A stretch of DNA of 42,769 nt, taken from Bifidobacteriaceae bacterium (GTDB lineage Bacteria; Actinomycetota; Actinomycetes; Actinomycetales; WQXJ01). Positions within the stretch are counted from its first letter, which is position 1, and the number at the start of each line of letters is the position of its first letter. The stretch covers positions 1 through 42,769 of the forward strand of contig JAITFE010000047.1 of the NCBI GenBank assembly GCA_031281585.1. Direction: 5' to 3'. Below, piece by piece: positions 34,678 to 42,769 of this stretch. The position numbers were made by a program, and so were the translations under genes. The notes below the pieces were generated by a model that saw nothing but the letters and a program-made list of their open reading frames with translations, was not told the origin of the DNA and ran no database searches.

Positions 34678-34849
34678 CGCCGCGGCAAGACCCCCGGTCA
34701 CGATGCCGTCGCCTCGGTCCAGCGCGTCGCCGTCGTTTGCCGGAGCTTGAGAACGGCCGCACTATTGTGGTGCCGGTCTGTTCGCAGGCGTCCCGCCTGC
34801 TCTGACGGCGGGCCGCGCACCCCGGGCAAGGCAATCCAGGAGGACAGCC

Positions 34850-36523
34850 ATGGAGGTCAAGGAATTCGTCGACGCGCTGGAGCGTTACCTTGTCGCGGCT
34901 GGCGAGGCGGATCGCCGCGCCACCCTGCGGGCGGTGGCCCGGCGGTTGGGGGCGGAGGGGCGGGCGGCGGTCGCGGACGGCATCGGCGGCCTGTCGCAGG
35001 AGGGGGCGGCGGACGGCGGGGCCCCGGCGGGCGGAAAGCGGCCCGACTTGGGAACTCTGCTGGAGCGGGCGGCGGCGCTGGTCGGACGGGTGGAGGCGGG
35101 GGAATACGGCTTCGAGTACGGCTACGAGGAGTACGGCTACGGCGAGTACGGCGACTACTGGGATGACGAGGGATTCCTGGTCGACCAGGACGGCCTCTGC
35201 CCCGAAATCAAGGCGCTGCTCCAAGAGGCCGTTGACGGGATCGACGACGGCCACCACGCGCTGGGCTTGGCCGTGATCGACTTGCTGGCGGACATCGACG
35301 TGCCGTGCGACTATGACGGCGCCGACTTCGTCAGCCTGCTGGAAGAGGGGCGCCTGGGCTTGGGCCGGGATCGGGTCTTGGCGCCTTGGGTCGCGGCCGC
35401 GTTCCACGCGTTGGAAGGCGACGAGCGGTTGGCCCGCGTGCTTGAGGTTGGGCGGCGCTTCCACTGGCGGCTGCCGCTGAAAAAAGCCTTGGAAGCCGCC
35501 GGGGCGGAGCCTGAGGCGGCCGACCGGTTCTTGGGGGAACTGGCCCGGAGGATCATGGCGGAACTGGGCCAGTCCGTGCCTCCCAACCCGTTCGCCTTTG
35601 ACGCGACCGAGCTTGACCAACTGCTGGCCGACGCGGTCAGCTTGCGCGGGCGCGGCGCTCTGCGCGAGGCGGCGTCTCGCCACGGCCAAAGGCATCCCGT
35701 TCTGTATTCGCGGCTGGTCGGGGAGCTTTCGGCCGCAGGCGAGTTGGAGGCCGCCGTTGACGCGGCGGCGGCGGCGCTGACCGCGGTTCCGAGCGCCCGG
35801 CGGGCCGAACGCGCCCTGATAGCCGACCTCATGTTTCAAGCGGCCGAGGAGGCCGGCCTGGCGGACCAGGCCGCCGCGGCGGCCGAGGCCGGGTTCGCGG
35901 CGGGCCTCGACCTGCCGCGCTTTCTGAGGTTGCGCCGGGTGGGTTCGGCAGCGGCCGTGGCGCGGGGCGTTGCCGCGCTGAAAGGCGCTCCGCCGCGCGG
36001 GGATGACGCGATGGCGGTGCTTTTCCTGGCGGGGGAATTCCAGGTGCTGTGGCGCGCGGTCAGCAGCGACAAGGCCGCGTTGGGCTGGTCGGGGAGCGAC
36101 AAGGGCGCAGCCTTTCCGCTGATCCTGGCTTTGCTGTTCGAAGGCCGCGAGTGGGGAGCGGTGGCTCGGGGCCTCGTCCGGGCGGTGGCGGAACCCCGCG
36201 GCGCGGAGGTCGCCGACCAGTTCATGCGGGCCGCGGAGGAGGTGGACACGGCCGTGCCGCCCGCCGACTTGGCCACCTACAGGGGCTGGTGCCGGGCGGA
36301 GGTCGCGGGCCGGGTGGACGGCATCGTCCAAAACCAACACCGGGGCGCCTACGCCCGGGCCGCGACGCTGGTGGTGGCCTACGCCGAAGCGGTGGCGGCC
36401 ACCGGCGGCGGGGGCGATCCGAAACCGCTCGCCTATGTGGCGGGATTCCACGAGCGGTTCCCCAAGCACGGCGCGTTCCGCCGGGAGTTGGAAGCCGCCC
36501 TGGCCAAGTCGTCGCTGCGCTGA
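34850..36523 (+). CDS. hypothetical helical-repeat protein with Gly/Tyr/Glu tract
   Basis: The 557-residue product is not one I recognise. Residues about 84-106 are a tract of Glu, Tyr and Gly (EYGFEYGYEEYGYGEYGDYW), possibly flexible. The rest is alanine- and leucine-rich and helical, with TPR-like pairs (ESRLVGELSAAGELEAAV-type pattern from about 285, MFQAAEEAGLADQAAAAAEA). The end, VAGFHERFPKHGAFRRELEA, resembles the C-termini of SWIM-zinc-finger companion proteins, but no SWIM motif is present. AGGAGGA lies five bases before the ATG, so translation should be strong. It has the same overall design as the protein at 16085-17311. Confidence 0.8.
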   Translation: MEVKEFVDALERYLVAAGEADRRATLRAVARRLGAEGRAAVADGIGGLSQEGAADGGAPAGGKRPDLGTLLERAAALVGRVEAGEYGFEYGYEEYGYGEYGDYWDDEGFLVDQDGLCPEIKALLQEAVDGIDDGHHALGLAVIDLLADIDVPCDYDGADFVSLLEEGRLGLGRDRVLAPWVAAAFHALEGDERLARVLEVGRRFHWRLPLKKALEAAGAEPEAADRFLGELARRIMAELGQSVPPNPFAFDATELDQLLADAVSLRGRGALREAASRHGQRHPVLYSRLVGELSAAGELEAAVDAAAAALTAVPSARRAERALIADLMFQAAEEAGLADQAAAAAEAGFAAGLDLPRFLRLRRVGSAAAVARGVAALKGAPPRGDDAMAVLFLAGEFQVLWRAVSSDKAALGWSGSDKGAAFPLILALLFEGREWGAVARGLVRAVAEPRGAEVADQFMRAAEEVDTAVPPADLATYRGWCRAEVAGRVDGIVQNQHRGAYARAATLVVAYAEAVAATGGGGDPKPLAYVAGFHERFPKHGAFRRELEAALAKSSLR

Positions 36524-36528
36524 CGGGG

Positions 36529-36843
36529 CCTCAGGCCGCCCGAGGACGGTACTTCACCCCGGAACTTGCCGCGCAACTGACTGCCTGGCCGCCGAGGCTG
36601 CCGAAGGCGGACTGTTTGCAGGTTCTTGACCCGGGAGCAGGCTCGGGCATGCTGACCGCGGCCATCGTGGACCGCCTCTGCCGGAAGGGCAAGATCGGGC
36701 GAGTAGAGGCCACGGCGGTCGAACCCGTGCCGCACTGTGGCATGGAGTTGATTCTGAACCCCGAGCTTCACGCGCTCGCCACCGTCGCGGGCCGGACGCG
36801 ACCGGCCTTGGACGCAGGGGCCTTCGCTAGTCCCACATGCTGA
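36529..36843 (+). pseudogene. truncated N6-adenine DNA methyltransferase fragment (Eco57I/PstI-like)
   Basis: The frame directly after the 557-residue gene reads RGRYFTPELAAQLTAWPP, then LQVLDPGAGSGMLTAAIVDR and VEATAVEPVPHCGMELIL, before stopping at 36843. These match the N-terminal part and SAM motif I of type II N6-adenine methyltransferases. The catalytic NPPY-type motif and everything after it are missing, and there is no start codon of its own. It is the left-hand scar of a lost restriction-modification gene. Confidence 0.65.
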
Positions 36844-37237
36844 CGAGAAACTCGCGCAGAGTGCCACGGGGCTGATTCCGCGTCCGCCAGATCCCGCCGC
36901 ACAGGCTCACCGCCATGCTGCCGAGCCCCCAGCAAGTCCAATACCAATCACCGGTCGCAGCCCAAACTGCTGCGCCGAGGACCACGCACGCAACCTCAAG
37001 CGAGCCCATCCAGATCCACCCGCGCCTGTTTGGGCGCCCGTCGCCCTCCCGGCCGGGAGGCCCCTGCCTTCGCCAGACAAGCAGAAGCGCGCACAAGTCG
37101 CCCAACGCCGCTCCCATTGCGATCGCACCGGCCACGTATCGCGCGGAGAGGACCAGGTAGAGGGCCAATCCAAGACAAAGCAAAGCCGCAGAGCCCAGCG
37201 CGAAGTACAGCTTGCCCTTGGTCGCATCCGTGTTCAC
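36827..37237 (-). CDS. small integral membrane protein
   Basis: The 136-residue product has four likely membrane helices: LYFALGSAALLCLGLALYLV, YVAGAIAMGAALGDLCALLL, a third near LEVACVVLGAAVWAATG and a fourth near CWGLGSMAVSLCGGIW. A charged loop (GREGDGRPNRRG) lies between the second and third. I chose the GTG at 37237 because GGAGGG lies just upstream; a longer frame upstream is possible. I do not recognise the family. Its 3' end overlaps the methyltransferase fragment by 17 bases on the opposite strand. Confidence 0.65.
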   Translation of the reverse strand: MNTDATKGKLYFALGSAALLCLGLALYLVLSARYVAGAIAMGAALGDLCALLLVWRRQGPPGREGDGRPNRRGWIWMGSLEVACVVLGAAVWAATGDWYWTCWGLGSMAVSLCGGIWRTRNQPRGTLREFLVSMWD

Positions 37238-37672
37238 GTAAACCCTCCGGTGAAAACTGACAGTGAATTCTTTCACTGTCCCCGGCGACCGCGCGGGGTG
37301 GGGCCGCACCGCAGAAATGAAGACGTGTCGCGTGTGACCGCCTCTCCTTCAGCCGCCCGCCGTGCCCGAACCTGCCGGCTCGCACGGCCGGAATCGCCGC
37401 AGGGCATGGTCCTGACACCGCTGACGTGGCACATGATGGTCTGCATCTACAGCAGAGCACGCCTGATCGGATCCCCGTCGCTCTGCTTCTTTGGTGCCAC
37501 CAGTGCACGTCGTCCGGTGCAGACAGGGGCTCCAGGGCCACCGCTACCAGCGAGTGCGTCATCTGCACAAGTCTCTACATAGGTGAGTAGGTGCCGTCTG
37601 AAGAACCCGCGCCGGCGTGTCGGAGACCAGCAAGTCGGCGCTCTGTCAGCGGTGGCCCGCCCCCCAACGTGG
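37238..37672. other. intergenic region with one palindrome
   Basis: About 435 bp without a convincing gene. At 37259-37280, eight-base arms GACAGTGA and TCACTGTC flank a six-base AT-rich loop, 22 bp upstream of the membrane protein's start; this could be an operator. I see nothing else with clear structure. Confidence 0.5.
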
Positions 37673-38542
37673 TTAGTCTGGCGCATCACTGGACTTGGAC
37701 CTACCTGCGGAAGTGCCGAGCAAGAGTCGGCCGGGGCGACCCTCCACGCGGTCAATGACGTGGAACCCACCGCGCCTGGAGCCCGTGTCGTTGACGTAAA
37801 CGTATTCCAGGGCGGCGAGCCGATTCCCGAGCATGCGCCGCACCAGATCGTAGGACGGCGACAGATGCGGCGTCGACCCGTCCAAGACCGAATAGGCGGC
37901 GCACGCCGCCGGGTACGCCAATCCCGACGCGACAACGTCCGCGATCTGCAGCGCCGGGTGAGTGTCCGAGTGACCGAACACCGGCGACTCGATCAATTCC
38001 GGGAACACTCCGCCGCCTCGGCGGAATCGGCGCGTCGTGATCGTGTGGACATTGCCCTCGTTCTTCACCTTGGTCTGCGAGTCCAACACCATCAAACCCC
38101 TAGCTCCCAGATCGGCGAGTTGCCGCGCGAACGTCTCCGCCATCACCGCGACAGCGCTCGGGTATGTTGACGCGGCGCTGTAGACCTCGCCGGGCCGCTT
38201 GACGAGGACCCGCCCAAACAGCCGCGCGCCGCGCGACTCCAGCAGACGCACCGTCTTGTCCAGGAACCCAATCGCGCGCCGCCTCGTGTCCCGCGAACCC
38301 TCTTCACGGATGTCGCGCCGCAACGACGCTCCCTTGACCTCGTGGCTAATCGCCTCCGACAACTCCCGGCGGCCCAACGACGGCTCGAATCTGGCCTTCA
38401 GGCGTAGGTACGCCATCGTCAAGTCAGGCACCACGGCGGCGTCCACACTGACGCCGGCCACCACGAAGACAGGCGTAGACGCGGGATCCACCGGCGCGTA
38501 CACGCCCGCGTTCCCTGCTTCATCGACGTAGCACAGGCGCAC
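37673..38542 (-). CDS. DUF3800 family protein
   Basis: The 289-residue product starts LCYVDEAGNAG, the YxDExG motif of DUF3800 proteins. It also has a second acidic motif in LMVLDSQTK and the C-terminal HPALQIADVVASGLAYPA, which matches the family's LQLADxxA. The conserved acids suggest an RNase H-like metal-dependent fold. The family is often found near mobile elements and defence genes, but its activity is not established. The GTG at 38542 follows GGGAAGGTGA. Its leader contains several hairpins and a conserved 112-bp element also found upstream of the Abi gene. Confidence 0.88.
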   Translation of the reverse strand: MRLCYVDEAGNAGVYAPVDPASTPVFVVAGVSVDAAVVPDLTMAYLRLKARFEPSLGRRELSEAISHEVKGASLRRDIREEGSRDTRRRAIGFLDKTVRLLESRGARLFGRVLVKRPGEVYSAASTYPSAVAVMAETFARQLADLGARGLMVLDSQTKVKNEGNVHTITTRRFRRGGGVFPELIESPVFGHSDTHPALQIADVVASGLAYPAACAAYSVLDGSTPHLSPSYDLVRRMLGNRLAALEYVYVNDTGSRRGGFHVIDRVEGRPGRLLLGTSAGRSKSSDAPD

Positions 38543-38565
38543 CGCTCACCTTCCCGCAAACGCAA

Positions 38566-38632
38566 CTGTGGCCGCCCGCAGGCGGCCACAGGACTCACCG
38601 CACCACGTGCGGCTAAAGCGTTCACTGAACGC
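38566..38632 (-). promoter_or_regulatory. three consecutive hairpins in the DUF3800 gene leader
   Basis: Stem 1 has 11-base perfect arms (38566-38576, 38581-38591) with a four-base loop. Stem 2 has six-base arms (38598-38603, 38607-38612). Stem 3 has GCGTTC/GAACGC arms (38618-38623, 38627-38632). They end 23 bp from the start codon. On the minus strand stem 1 is followed by TTGCGTTTGC, so it could act as an attenuator. Confidence 0.5.
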
Positions 38633-38670
38633 CACAACCACCCTAAAGGAAAAGGTCCCAAGCCGACAAC

Positions 38671-38785
38671 CGCCGCCAATGCCATGCATAACATCCACGT
38701 CCCGGGATCCGTCGTCAGGCCAACCTGTGACGGAACAGACCGCCCGCCTGGAACACATGTCCGGGCAATCGAGAAGGAGACCCCC
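38671..38785 (-). repeat. 112-bp class element, copy 1 (upstream of DUF3800 gene)
   Basis: This stretch matches 41673-41783 in the same orientation with only three substitutions and one short indel region near one end. It ends 128 bp before the DUF3800 start. No protein in it is convincing. The close match despite unrelated flanks shows recent duplication, transfer or selection. Confidence 0.85.
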
Positions 38786-38800
38786 TGGCGGATAGCCGCT

Positions 38801-38880
38801 CCTGGTAGCGCGTGTCTGGGTTGTTGGTAGCGGTTTTCCGGGTGGTTGGTAGCGCGGGGTGTGGCGGAGCGGTTGTCCGG
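38801..38880. mobile_element. possible insertion-sequence end with tandem TGGTAGCG motifs
   Basis: TGGTAGCG occurs at 38803-38810, 38825-38832 and 38846-38853, spaced by 22 and 21 bases, directly next to repeat copy 1. Several ~20-bp repeats at an element's end are typical of IS21-type transposase binding sites. No transposase gene is present, so this would be a relic end. Confidence 0.35.
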
Positions 38881-39114
38881 TCGGGCGGCGCCAGATCGTC
38901 ATCTTTGATCGGCAGCAGCCCGAAGTCCTATTCGCCCGACGTACGTCCACCGCCGTGAAGAACAGCGCTGTCTCCATGTAAAGCGCCTCTCCGTCACCCG
39001 CTCGAACGAACAGGCCCAATGCTGGGGAGGCGGCACACGCCAGGCAGAGTCCTTGCCGGGTCGGGCGCGACGCCATCGGGCTGCTGTTGCCAGGTGTTCT
39101 CCTGGAACTCAGCG

Positions 39115-40515
39115 TCAGCCTGAGCGTCCGGTCATGATCTGGGCCGCGACGTCGCGGATGGCATCATAGGCGTCCAAAAGGCATTCCTCGACTATCCCGT
39201 CCGACAGAGCGTGCTTGTCCCGCATCAAGTTGACTGCGTTCGCCCGGCAGATGGAGCACGGCGTCTGCCGATAGACGTATTCCAACACCCCGGTGGTCAC
39301 CGGCCTGTCATCGGGTTTGAGTAGATCAATGACGCGGTCGTAAGCGGCATGCCCGGCATCGCGACGAAGTGACGCACGCCGAATAGCCGCCCCGACAGCC
39401 GACTCATCCTCCGGCAAATAGCTGGCTTGGAGCAATTCCAGGGCTTCGTCCACATGCTCCCGGTCCTTCAGCAGATCGAGTGCGTGCCTGCGCTTCCAGC
39501 CTGCCGGCCGTTGGCCCAGGATCGACCGGACGACCTGCCGCAACTCGTCGTTGGCGGTGTCGACCAAGGACGCGAGATCATCGTCCGGCAAGGGGAAGGA
39601 CCAGGCGCGGAACGCCCACAGAACCTCGGCTTTGATAGTCGGATCAGACTCCGCCAGCCCGAGACGCGCTACCTCCTCGGTGTACGTCGGGCTTCGATGC
39701 CGGACGATTTGCATTCCCACTGACCTGAGGCGCCGCGGGTTGATGTCCCCGCGCCTGGCCTGGTCGACCAAGGCGGCCAGCTCCTCGATAGTCGGCTGCT
39801 GGCTGTGGGCTCCGGTCCGCCACGGCTTCGTGCGTGCCGTCGCCGCAGTGTCGCCGTACGCGCGCAGACCAGGTGAGGAATGGTCTTCCAGATAGGCGTT
39901 GACCTTCGCGTCGCCGAACTGTTCCCGGATGGCCGAGTCGAACCAGTCGGGAAAATACAGCCATCGTGCATGCTCGGCCTGGCTTCGCCACGCCGCCAGA
40001 CCTTCCCCAAAATCGGACACCGCCTTCCGCGCGGCATCCCAACCGCCCACACGCACCAAGTCGAGGGCCAAACTCTCAAGCGTGGAGACCGATCGCCACC
40101 AGCTATCACGGCGGACCACCCGTGCATACCGCGACATCAGCCGGGAGTAACCGGCCCACAGCGCTTGACGAGAAGACCCCGACCCATCCAACGCGAACTG
40201 AACCAGAATGTCCGCCAGATGGTCGAACCGCCACCCGTCCGGCGCGCACGCCGCGAACCGGTCGACCACATCCGCCTCGATAGACTCCGCCCACCCCGTC
40301 AGCACGGCAGCCTCATGCAGATACCAGCCCCGACTGCCCTCACACTGCGGGTCGTACGTTGTCACATGGAGACACGCCCAGCGCACCGCCTCCGCATATC
40401 TCTGCGGATCAGGGCTTGACCGCAGGGTCAACAGGGCCGACCCCAACCCCCGCCGAAGATCATGGCGAAACGTCCTCAGCACCGAGGTGTCTGCCCCGCT
40501 CTCCCAAGCACTCAT
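39115..40515 (-). CDS. hypothetical helical (HEAT-like) repeat protein
   Basis: The 466-residue product is not one I can name. The C-terminal half has HEAT-like helix pairs (LGLAESDPTIKAEVLWAFRA, DTANDELRQVVRSILGQ, IVEECLLDAYDAIRDVAAQI) and a CxxC in QTPCSICRANAV. The N-terminal half is rich in tryptophan and arginine (WSVSTLESLALDL-like region near 155) and has no membrane segment or signal peptide. It lies downstream of the Abi gene on the same strand, 184 bp away, so the two could be one module. The start ATG at 40515 has a weak ribosome binding site. Confidence 0.8.
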   Translation of the reverse strand: MSAWESGADTSVLRTFRHDLRRGLGSALLTLRSSPDPQRYAEAVRWACLHVTTYDPQCEGSRGWYLHEAAVLTGWAESIEADVVDRFAACAPDGWRFDHLADILVQFALDGSGSSRQALWAGYSRLMSRYARVVRRDSWWRSVSTLESLALDLVRVGGWDAARKAVSDFGEGLAAWRSQAEHARWLYFPDWFDSAIREQFGDAKVNAYLEDHSSPGLRAYGDTAATARTKPWRTGAHSQQPTIEELAALVDQARRGDINPRRLRSVGMQIVRHRSPTYTEEVARLGLAESDPTIKAEVLWAFRAWSFPLPDDDLASLVDTANDELRQVVRSILGQRPAGWKRRHALDLLKDREHVDEALELLQASYLPEDESAVGAAIRRASLRRDAGHAAYDRVIDLLKPDDRPVTTGVLEYVYRQTPCSICRANAVNLMRDKHALSDGIVEECLLDAYDAIRDVAAQIMTGRSG

Positions 40516-40681
40516 GTCCAGGCGGCCCGACCGACCGAGAACGCAGCGGCGAAAGGATCAAATCTCACGACCGAATTCTCCCACCACGGCACCGCCCCGC
40601 CAGGAGGGTCCAGCCGCAACCTACTGCCGCAATCGCGGCGGCCAGGGGCATCCAGCGAAATCTCAATGAGCGCTTTGTTGA

Positions 40682-40703
40682 TTAGCGCGGAAATCCGCGC
40701 TAA
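40682..40703 (-). terminator. hairpin overlapping the Abi stop codon
   Basis: Nine-base perfect arms TTAGCGCGG (40682-40690) and CCGCGCTAA (40695-40703) flank the loop AAAT; the TAG stop at 40702-40700 lies in one arm. On the minus strand no T-run follows, so termination would be weak or Rho-assisted. It may limit read-through into the helical-repeat gene. Confidence 0.5.
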
Positions 40704-41563
40704 CGGCCCGGCACATCGCGGGCGCTGAGACCAGGCAGGTCGATGCGCAGGCCGTCGAGGTCGTTTGCGGCTGGGTAGGCGGCCAGCTCGGCCTCGCCGG
40801 GGTATGCCTTGTCCTGCCAGTCGGCGGGCAGGTCCCTGGCTTGCAGGGCAGGCTTCACGGTTAGCACCCGGTTCCACAAGCGTTTGTTGTGGGCACAGGC
40901 GTTGCGGACGTGGTTCATGCTCCGCAACCAGGTCCGCATGGTGCGTTCCGCTGAAAGCCCTGCAGCCCAGGCCTTGCGATCCGAATACGGCATCAGTTCA
41001 TAGATGTCCGTGACCGCGCCGAAGTCGAATAACTCGCACGCGATCCAAATGGCCAGAGGCTGGCCGTACTTGGTCAGGTTGTGGCCGACGAACGGCTCCT
41101 TCTGCGCCCGCTCCTGGAGACTGTTGTACTTGGCCAGCCACCAGTTGAAGGCCGTGTCGGTCCTCTTTCCTCGGGCGAAACGGCGACCACAGGCCATCTT
41201 GCCCAGGCATTTCATGGCGACGTGGGCGAACAGGTCGCGTTGACCCAGGACGTAGGCGACCCTGGCTCGAGCGGCCACCTCGATCAGCCGAGCCCCATCG
41301 AGAAGGCAGTTGCGCAACTGGCGGTCATACTCGATGAGTGTCTCCACGTCGCGCAGGTCGGTGCCGGGCCGGAAGACGTCAAGCCTGCCCTTACTAGAGG
41401 GCGCGGGGCGTCGATACGGGTAGAGGTACCCTGTCAAGTTGTAGTAGCCGATGGCCTCCAGGAGCCGGATCGCTCCGGCGTCGTCGGGGCACGCCGTGCC
41501 CCTGGACTTGATCAGCGCCAACTGCTGTTGGTAGGTCAGGTGAGGCTTGGAGTAGGTGCTCAC
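40700..41563 (-). CDS. Abi_2 (AbiD/AbiF-like) HEPN-domain abortive infection protein
   Basis: The 287-residue product matches the Abi_2 family throughout: HLTYQQQLALIKSRG, LLEAIGYYNLTGYLYPYR, VETLIEYDRQLRNCLLDGAR, and LIEVAARARVAYVLG. Near residue 220 it has RNACAH, the R-x4-H active-site motif of HEPN ribonucleases (Arg220, His225). Lactococcal AbiD/AbiF proteins stop phage growth by killing or arresting the host, and members of this family have been related to Cas13. RNase activity here is inferred from the motif. The GTG at 41563 has no strong ribosome binding site. Repeat copy 2 lies 109 bp upstream. Confidence 0.9.
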   Translation of the reverse strand: MSTYSKPHLTYQQQLALIKSRGTACPDDAGAIRLLEAIGYYNLTGYLYPYRRPAPSSKGRLDVFRPGTDLRDVETLIEYDRQLRNCLLDGARLIEVAARARVAYVLGQRDLFAHVAMKCLGKMACGRRFARGKRTDTAFNWWLAKYNSLQERAQKEPFVGHNLTKYGQPLAIWIACELFDFGAVTDIYELMPYSDRKAWAAGLSAERTMRTWLRSMNHVRNACAHNKRLWNRVLTVKPALQARDLPADWQDKAYPGEAELAAYPAANDLDGLRIDLPGLSARDVPGR

Positions 41564-42020
41564 GGGCGGCCCCAGACATGAGACAACCGGCCTTGCCGTT
41601 GCTGGTAGAGGGCCGATCTTAGTGCAATCACTGTAAGTCCCCGATCAGCGCAAGGCAAGACGGACGGACGGACGCCGCCAATGCCATGCGGAACATCCAC
41701 GTCCCGGGATCCGCCGTCAGGCCAACCTGTGACGGAACAGACCGCCCGCCTGGAACACATGTGCAGTCGAGAAGGAGACCCCCCACCACGACTTCTCCTG
41801 GCCGCCCGCAGGGATTTCCCAGTGGCAACCGACAATTCGAACCGGCGCTACCGCCTTGAGCGCTTGGCTTGGAGGACGATGGCGTGCTTTGGCTCGCGTT
41901 GGAAACTTGCGTTCATCTGCGGTTTCGCCGTTGGGTGGCGTTGCCTCGGGTTGGTCCTTTCCGAACCTGGCACGGGACCAAGACGGGACAGATTGCTGTG
42001 AACGCGGTCAGCTTCGGCGT
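41564..42020. other. non-coding region upstream of the Abi gene
   Basis: This stretch contains the Abi gene leader (41564-41672), a run of four GACG units at about 41659-41675, repeat copy 2 (41673-41783), and then about 235 bp in which I see no gene or clear structure before the cytosine methyltransferase fragment. Confidence 0.6.
41673..41783 (-). repeat. 112-bp class element, copy 2 (upstream of Abi gene)
   Basis: It matches 38671-38785 in the same orientation. On the minus strand both copies precede an accessory gene by a similar distance (109 and 128 bp). The flanks beyond each copy are unrelated. It contains CTGT-N6-ACAG, a weak palindrome, and no open frame that is conserved in a convincing way. 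Confidence 0.85.
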
Positions 42021-42344
42021 CTATGCGAGAACCAACGGCTGTTGGTCGTCACGTGAATTGGCGATGCTTGGCGTCGCTGGGGTGCCGCCACGCTCGCAGG
42101 AAAGGGCCCTGGGCGGGGGCCCCTTGGGTCCAGCCACAATCAGCGCTCGGAGCGCTGCGACGGCCTGTTGCGGGACGACGCCGTTGCCGAGTGCGTGCAG
42201 TTGTTGGGTGAGGGTGAGCCCGGGGGAAGAGTCGGTGACCCAGCCCTCGGGCGCATCATCCATTCTGTGAACATCGCCGAGGATTGTCTCATGGGCGGGT
42301 CGCTCGTAAGCACACAAACCAAGCGTCACTTGATTTGCGAACAA
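42021..42344 (-). pseudogene. truncated C5-cytosine DNA methyltransferase, C-terminal fragment
   Basis: The frame ends GWVTDSSPGLTLTQQLHALG, NGVVPQQAVAALRALI, the C-terminal signature of actinobacterial and phage Dcm-type methyltransferases (motif X: LGNGVVPQQA). Nothing of the catalytic domain (PCQ, ENV motifs) lies upstream; the sequence instead runs into the gap before the AlbA_2 gene. The fragment therefore cannot be active. Confidence 0.7.
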
Positions 42345-42393
42345 CAGTTGGCAGACCGGTCACGAGGCTGACGATCAATCGAATCGTCGGGGC

Positions 42394-42769
42394 TCATTCT
42401 TCACCGCCCTCCACGATGATCCACTGTCCTTGCCTGTCGGAACCGACTCGACGGATGACGCCGGTTTCGCGCAGCTTCCTGATCTCCCGTGAGATCGTGC
42501 GTTCAGTGACGCCCACCAGGCGGGCAAGCTCCTTCTGGGTGATGCTCGGGTTGTCCGCCAGCGCCGACAGCACCGCCCTTGCCTGGGCCTCCCCAGCGTC
42601 CACGACACTTTCTACGACATCTACGACAGGGCCTGTCGGTGATGTCGTAGAAGTGGCGGGGAACGGGAAGGTGACGTTCACTTCGCCAGGCCTGGACCTG
42701 AAGACCGGGATCGGCTTGCGCGCCTCACGGCTGGCGGTCTCGATCTTCTCGATGCCTCGTCCCCACGCC
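42394..42769 (-). CDS. AlbA_2/Schlafen-like ATP-binding regulator, C-terminal part (5' end beyond window)
   Basis: The visible 125 codons start in AWGRGIEKIETASREARKP, a signature of the C-terminus of COG2865-type proteins (AlbA_2 plus ATPase-like C-terminal domain, usually EAWGRGIxKI), followed by VFRSRPGEVNVTF. The end is a winged helix-turn-helix (SITQKELARLVGVTERTISR, EIRKLRETGVIRRVGSDRQG). Such proteins are called transcriptional regulators or RecG-like in databases and turn up in defence and mobile regions; their function is not firm. A GTG at 42681 could be taken for a start, but the conserved sequence continues upstream off the window. Confidence 0.8.
   Translation of the reverse strand, partial: AWGRGIEKIETASREARKPIPVFRSRPGEVNVTFPFPATSTTSPTGPVVDVVESVVDAGEAQARAVLSALADNPSITQKELARLVGVTERTISREIRKLRETGVIRRVGSDRQGQWIIVEGGEE

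Follow-up and report, generated by a model that had tools for sequence, protein, structure and literature searches.

Tandem accretion at tRNA genes or other attachment (att) sites is known from cis-mobilizable elements (CIMEs) (Pavlovic 2004 and Bellanger 2011, as summarized in the review PMC5704250), and in arrays of this kind successive insertion restores the target and leaves copies of the core behind (PMC5704250; PMC3146451). Structured RNAs have been described beside two protein families that also occur at the locus considered here: RCd22 of C. difficile carries two abiF motifs (PMC12373285), and the DUF3800-I and DUF3800-IX motifs of Rfam lie immediately upstream of DUF3800 genes (Weinberg 2017, as cited in PMC10910872 and PMC11701678). 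A contig from a Bifidobacteriaceae bacterium (JAITFE010000047.1, assembly GCA_031281585.1), analysed over its whole length of 42,769 nt and called the window below, holds two near-identical copies, A and B, of a 112-bp repeat, upstream of a DUF3800 gene and of an Abi_2 HEPN gene, respectively. It is highly probable that this repeat is the attachment-proximal left end of integrase-less elements that target tRNA-Glu(CTC), have accreted in tandem and carry defence-type cargo.

The repeat and the tRNA-Glu array

Copies A and B have the same orientation, and their similarity ends abruptly on both sides. Positions 38671-38760 and 41673-41762 share 97% identity over 90 nt; after a 4-nt indel (CCGG, in copy A only), 38765-38785 and 41763-41783 share 95%; over all 115 columns identity is 93% (BLAST, E = 1.5e-43). 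Copy A ends 128 bp before the GTG start of the DUF3800 gene (38542) and copy B 109 bp before that of the Abi_2 gene (41563), so that the original prediction, made from the letters of the window, described correctly the near-identity, the shared orientation, the single short indel and both distances. Its statement that the flanks are unrelated holds between the two copies, but 41835-41943, in the flank of copy B, resembles sequence beside a further copy of the repeat (76% identity across 109 bp). In the whole genome only copies A and B score E<1e-40; a relaxed search yielded this third, diverged copy on another contig, C162 (C162:1838-1908, 72% over query positions 6-65, E = 1.7e-5), beyond which the genome holds no more copies at E<1e-5. 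Weaker matches in the same genome (L088-L094) were judged on inspection to be chance; partial matches of 22-27 nt in two other genomes (G015 and G073; L003, L004), which lie at or beside unrelated genes, were also taken as chance.

The end of the window and the start of C162 overlap exactly by 119 bp, as do the end of C162 and the start of C119, and the contigs are therefore ordered window, C162, C119. The composite can be read from glnS (in the window, to 34677; TIGR00440) to the intact tRNA-Glu(CTC) gene (C162:5773-5846, the same as C119:7-80; loci L105 and L103), beyond which lie tRNA-Gln and gltX. The flanks of copy B and of the C162 copy both contain a T-arm-like stretch, which is found exactly at C162:1940-1964, C162:5776-5800 and C119:10-34, the last two being one tRNA-Glu(CTC) gene. 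On C162 the diverged repeat copy adjoins att2, where 42 nt match the tRNA-Glu 3' end and beyond without a difference, and copy B has its counterpart in att3 (Table 1), so that each of the two copies closely follows a duplicated 3' end of tRNA-Glu. Read from tRNA-Glu on the minus strand, the array consists of segment 1 (a 424-aa protein, a 311-aa protein and a C5-methyltransferase), att2, the diverged repeat copy, segment 2, the right-end block, att3, copy B, R1, the Abi_2 gene with the gene of a 466-aa protein, copy A, R2 and the DUF3800 gene, where R1 and R2 are candidate RNAs discussed below. The cargo between att2 and att3 is an AlbA_2/HATPase_c_4 gene that spans the contig end. Direct repeats of the tRNA 3' end bound segments 1 and 2 on both sides and the Abi_2 segment on its left side only; copy A has none.

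Table 1. Features of the tRNA-Glu array within the window
Feature	Positions	Strand	Basis and reading
Island part inside the window	34678-42769		Whole island spans 13.7 kb, from after glnS to tRNA-Glu outside this contig
DUF3800 protein, 289 aa	37673-38542	minus	Pfam PF12686, E 4.6e-12
R2, DUF3800-linked candidate RNA; two hairpins, linker with conserved UCCU	38557-38631	minus	Alignment and covariance model
Repeat copy A	38671-38785	minus	Direct-repeat alignment with copy B; read as left (attachment-proximal) end of the DUF3800-module element
Arm-type-like motif in copy A, CTGTGACGGAACAGAC	38725-38740	plus	Motif search
466-aa protein, cargo of the Abi_2 segment	39115-40515	minus	No family match
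Abi_2 / AbiF-AbiD type HEPN protein, 287 aa	40700-41563	minus	Pfam PF07751, E 4.4e-38; PADLOC AbiD, E 2.4e-43
R1, Abi_2-linked candidate antitoxin RNA, 49 nt; hairpin with internal loop	41572-41620	minus	Alignment and covariance model
Repeat copy B	41673-41783	minus	Direct-repeat alignment, comparison with C162; read as left (attachment-proximal) end of the Abi_2-module element
Arm-type-like motif in copy B, CTGTGACGGAACAGAC	41727-41742	plus	Motif search
att3, CTCAAGGCGGTAGCGCCGGTTCGAAT	41835-41860	minus	26/26 nt identical to 3' part of tRNA-Glu(CTC); read as attachment core, decayed beyond
Right-end block of neighbouring element, including core	41835-41943	minus	76% to block before att2 on C162, about 70% to G001:C427
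Arm-2 motif, ACGGGACCAAGACGGGACAG	41972-41991	plus	Read as right arm of neighbouring element; left-arm partner C162:1847-1866
Schlafen AlbA_2 / HATPase_c_4 protein, C-terminal part; segment 2 cargo	42394-42769, continues C162:1-1108	minus	Pfam PF04326, PF13749; contig overlap

Short motifs recur at the ends of the segments. In 1.82 Mb of this genome the arm-1 motif TGACACAGAAATGACAC has two exact occurrences, one at each end of segment 1 (tRNA to att2), and within the same 1.82 Mb the arm-2 motif ACGGGACAGATACGGGACAG is confined to the ends of segment 2 (att2 to att3), where the left occurrence is exact and the right one has 3 mismatches. Motif and core are separated by 75 and 70 bp on the left side and by 109 and 111 bp on the right side. 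In copy B, 79 bp separate the motif from the predicted 3' end of the tRNA, and the matching stretch of the C162 copy is at the same distance. This is the arrangement expected of integrase arm sites, which the motifs would represent, presumably bound by an integrase supplied in trans. In the IMG/VR collection, one contig (L111) holds a tRNA-Thr with the arm-1 motif (ATGACACAGAAATGACAC) on the side that faces a Phage_integrase gene and a near copy, ATGACACAAAAATGACAC, on the other; a second contig (L110), where the motif lies between other open frames and no tRNA adjoins, adds no information. The arm-2 motif and the full core have no match in IMG/VR. Observed in this genome are several tRNA 3' ends in tandem, two of them with the repeat beyond, and motifs that mark both ends of two segments; these form the basis on which the repeat is read as an element end.

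Comparison within the genus adds to this basis one unoccupied site and a second occupied one. In G004, glnS ends 90 bp from tRNA-Glu, versus 13.7 kb here. In G001 the site is occupied: a relative of the att2-plus-repeat stretch stands directly downstream of the real tRNA-Glu (G001:C54, 80% over 138 nt, E 1.7e-27) together with the arm-2 motif, and a second contig (G001:C427) carries the right-end block, the core, a second left end and then glnS. Extra tRNA-Glu cores are present in G002 and G005. This comparison indicates that the gap between glnS and tRNA-Glu is an integration hotspot and that elements integrating in it end in the repeat. Homologous Abi_2 and DUF3800 modules at other loci have no core or close arm motif in the DNA inspected, apart from two weak matches with 3 and 5 mismatches, which implies that the repeat is tied to the site and the RNA to the gene.

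It can be proposed that small elements with a core identical to tRNA-Glu inserted successively at the tRNA 3' end, each insertion restoring tRNA-Glu and leaving a core copy. The 112-bp repeat would be the former integrase arm-binding side of the element's attachment site (attP), a constant end next to the core, and the resulting array between glnS and tRNA-Glu would comprise, in order from the tRNA, the methyltransferase, AlbA_2, Abi_2 plus 466-aa and DUF3800 segments. The elements were probably served by an integrase acting in trans, or have lost their own. Segment 4, with the DUF3800 gene, seems to have lost its core: copy A would have been deprived both of it and of the neighbour's right end, perhaps in the event that left the 22-bp units at 38803-38868. 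The repeat would then be found upstream of two unrelated genes because it is a constant element end, with an RNA and protein module as first cargo.

Several results weigh against this proposal. Near copy A there is neither a tRNA core (at up to 5 mismatches) nor a right-end block, so that this copy is assigned solely through its 93% identity to copy B. The motif within the repeat, CTGTGACGGAACAGAC, forms one unit and not a clear direct repeat; the opposite ends of segments 3 and 4 hold no partner for it. The island contains no integrase and the array no recombinase by pattern or annotation, and a crude pattern scan of 46% of the genome returned only Xer-like or unassigned tyrosine recombinases. 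The 112-bp form was not detected in 99 relatives or in 167 further genomes of the phylum, and has no match by exact 32-mer in 84,980 species genomes, by exact 21-mer in IMG/VR or by blastn in plasmids and phages. The genome is a draft, probably metagenome-assembled, and the composite depends on overlaps in its assembly.

Other features were noted along the array. Degenerate 22-bp tandem units (TGGTAGCG..., 38803-38868, plus strand) occupy the place beside copy A at which one would look for a tRNA core; the stretch beside copy A, searched by BLASTN against plasmids for an insertion sequence (IS), gave no match. At the C162/C119 junction the assembly breaks a few bases from the tRNA-Glu 3' end (end of L107, start of L108), which could reflect a population in which the site is occupied in some cells and in another state in others. 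The third repeat copy is adjoined, at C162:1179-1637 (L107), by a 152-aa open frame with a broken continuation and no family match, possibly a mobile-element remnant. A near-perfect 21-bp inverted repeat (90%) lies within the AlbA_2 protein gene at 42610-42652, near the contig break.

Candidate RNAs of the Abi_2 and DUF3800 genes

The Abi_2 protein matches the solved AbiF structure PDB 8vz6 in sequence (E 2.6e-20) and carries the Rx4H motif RNACAH, in agreement with the Rx4-6H pattern of AbiF-type proteins. R1 lies between copy B and this gene. Abi_2 homologues with 55-61% identity in G017, G003 and a Propionibacteriaceae metagenome-assembled genome are preceded, just before the start codon, by a short hairpin and not by the 112-bp repeat, and the same hairpin type is found upstream of almost all of about 30 further actinobacterial Abi_2 genes. 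It stands in two tandem copies in G003 and G017. In an alignment of 26 sequences, 98.4% of cells in the 7-bp outer stem are paired and 4 of the 7 pairs show two-sided changes; sliding the partner by 1-3 columns lowers pairing to 11-51%. A covariance model recovers the window copy (E 2.1e-9 in a 5.3-kb stretch) and finds 69 places in 297 genomes of the order, with an Abi_2 gene at 22 of the 30 loci inspected; the loci with Abi_2 are mostly training sequences, and the 11 non-training loci divide into 3 with the gene and 8 without it. At E<=10 the window stretch does not match the abiF motif of Rfam (RF03085), nor do twelve loci at E<=1. The Abi_2 gene very likely has an RNA partner. The original prediction had raised such a partner for AbiF-type proteins and sought it in the repeat; the partner itself appears real, but it would be the 49-nt R1 and not the repeat.

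The hairpins with no Abi_2 gene in the inspected DNA are L055 (G150), L067 (G133), L059, L064, L066, L057, L069 and L073. About 220 nt downstream of the hairpin, a FokI-recognition-domain protein is encoded in G150 and a SIR2_2 protein in G133; these neighbours suggest that R1-type RNAs may occur orphaned before other defence genes. Near one actinobacterial Abi_2 locus, L010:791-925 (minus strand) resembles the ALIL pseudoknot (48.1 bits against a gathering score of 50) and is presumably an IS3-family frameshift element.

R2 has an architecture common to six DUF3800 loci from the order and the class. Across these, 97.4% of cells are paired and two-sided changes occur in 11 of 20 pairs, compared with 1-2 when the partner is slid. 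When 395 genomes of the class were scanned with the R2 model, five DUF3800 loci, all of them training sequences, ranked first (E <= 5e-14), the next best match having 1.3e-7. Two R2-like RNAs, L079 (G439) and L080 (G518), with E of 1.3e-7 and 4.3e-7, have no DUF3800 gene in the inspected DNA. A terminator scan places one terminator-like hairpin inside R2. The DUF3800 models of Rfam have no match at the R2 locus (E<=10) and none at L036 and L037 (E<=1). R1 and R2 are most likely the RNAs that truly belong to the two genes, distinct from the repeat and located between it and the respective gene, and they may act as antitoxins.

Other explanations of the repeat

Besides a recombination site that captures defence genes, the original prediction offered a non-coding RNA and a shared promoter as explanations of the repeat. 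If the repeat were a non-coding RNA, or a piece of the RNA that partners the Abi_2 and DUF3800 proteins, its strand and general position would fit; RNA antitoxins exist for AbiF-type proteins (PMC12373285), and three minus-strand hairpins that tolerate the differences between A and B can be drawn. This explanation is nevertheless very improbable. Folding gave no signal, minus-strand energies being no better than those of shuffles (z +0.72 and +0.90), and among 400 random mutants carrying the same types of change 79% retain an equal or better consensus fold. The hairpins are not visible by eye in the aligned relatives from C162 and G001 (pairs not counted), BLAST detects no repeat copy at the Abi_2 and DUF3800 homologue loci examined, and Rfam gives nothing for the window or for both intergenic stretches. 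The place expected for such an RNA is moreover held by R1 and R2.

That the repeat is a shared promoter or operator co-regulating both modules is improbable as well. It ends beside the inferred start of each RNA unit, and sequence inspection shows short inverted repeats and, in copy A, a near LexA-box-like GGACATGTGTTC. However, a consensus scan finds no sigma-70-like site, the likely -10 hexamers seen on inspection (TAAGAT and TAGGGT) fall outside the repeat, homologous modules elsewhere do without it, and diverged copies adjoin tRNA-Glu 3' ends before other genes. A secondary role in expression is conceivable but finds no support. A miniature transposable element or IS remnant with no link to the tRNA could account for two near-identical, abrupt-ended copies 3 kb apart and for the degenerate tandem units beside copy A, but neither terminal inverted repeats nor target duplications were seen, no further copies exist at E<1e-5 and none at non-tRNA positions, and in two species the spacing between diverged homologues and tRNA-Glu cores is constant; we regard it as extremely improbable. 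Matches are not confined to an IS, and the reference point from which their position is consistent is the tRNA-Glu attachment site, not the genes next to which it had been sought. Of the original proposals, the recombination site for capture of defence genes is the one supported, by the duplicated tRNA-Glu 3' end and the tandem array of defence modules.

Relation to described systems

The array gives a concrete picture of how a defence island may grow, with small elements stacked at one tRNA gene and each leaving a tRNA end and a constant arm region. The tRNA-Glu core together with the arm motif could provide a cheap marker for such arrays in related actinobacteria. Separating the site-bound repeat from the gene-bound RNAs also leaves two candidate antitoxins supported by covariation, for Abi_2, of the Cas13-ancestor type, and for DUF3800. 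A further thought, speculative and on balance unlikely, is that the elements form a reusable chassis in which constant att ends are kept and defence cargo is exchanged, the tRNA-Glu site serving as a cassette array with a helper integrase, and that R1 and R2 are actinobacterial variants absent from Rfam that would add addiction to the array.

Integron gene cassettes are defined by attC sites and an integron integrase; here the cores are tRNA-Glu 3' ends and the array has no integrase. With the described DUF3800 RNA motifs, R2 shares its position upstream of the gene, but no Rfam family is reached at the R2 locus or at two homologues. The AbiF type III toxin-antitoxin systems (RCd22, PMC12373285; AbiFr / PDB 8VZ6, PMC12737573) likewise have a short structured RNA before an Abi_2 HEPN gene on the same strand, and the tandem R1 pair of G003 and G017 resembles the two abiF motifs of RCd22 (PMC12373285). 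Unlike in those systems, R1 has no Rfam match at the thresholds used and is a predicted antitoxin of a predicted toxin.

As in CIMEs, att copies flank segments that have no integrase or transfer genes, several of them in tandem at one tRNA 3' end. In contrast to CIMEs, the present segments are about 3-4 kb long, carry mostly defence-type cargo, show no decayed integrase between their ends and are putatively mobile. The ssrA islands of Dehalococcoides (PMC3146451) differ in their target, ssrA, in their serine recombinase and in their reductive dehalogenase cargo, but they too stand in tandem downstream of a single RNA gene, with direct repeats of its 3' end as boundaries and extra conserved sequence beside each repeat, and some of them lack integration modules.

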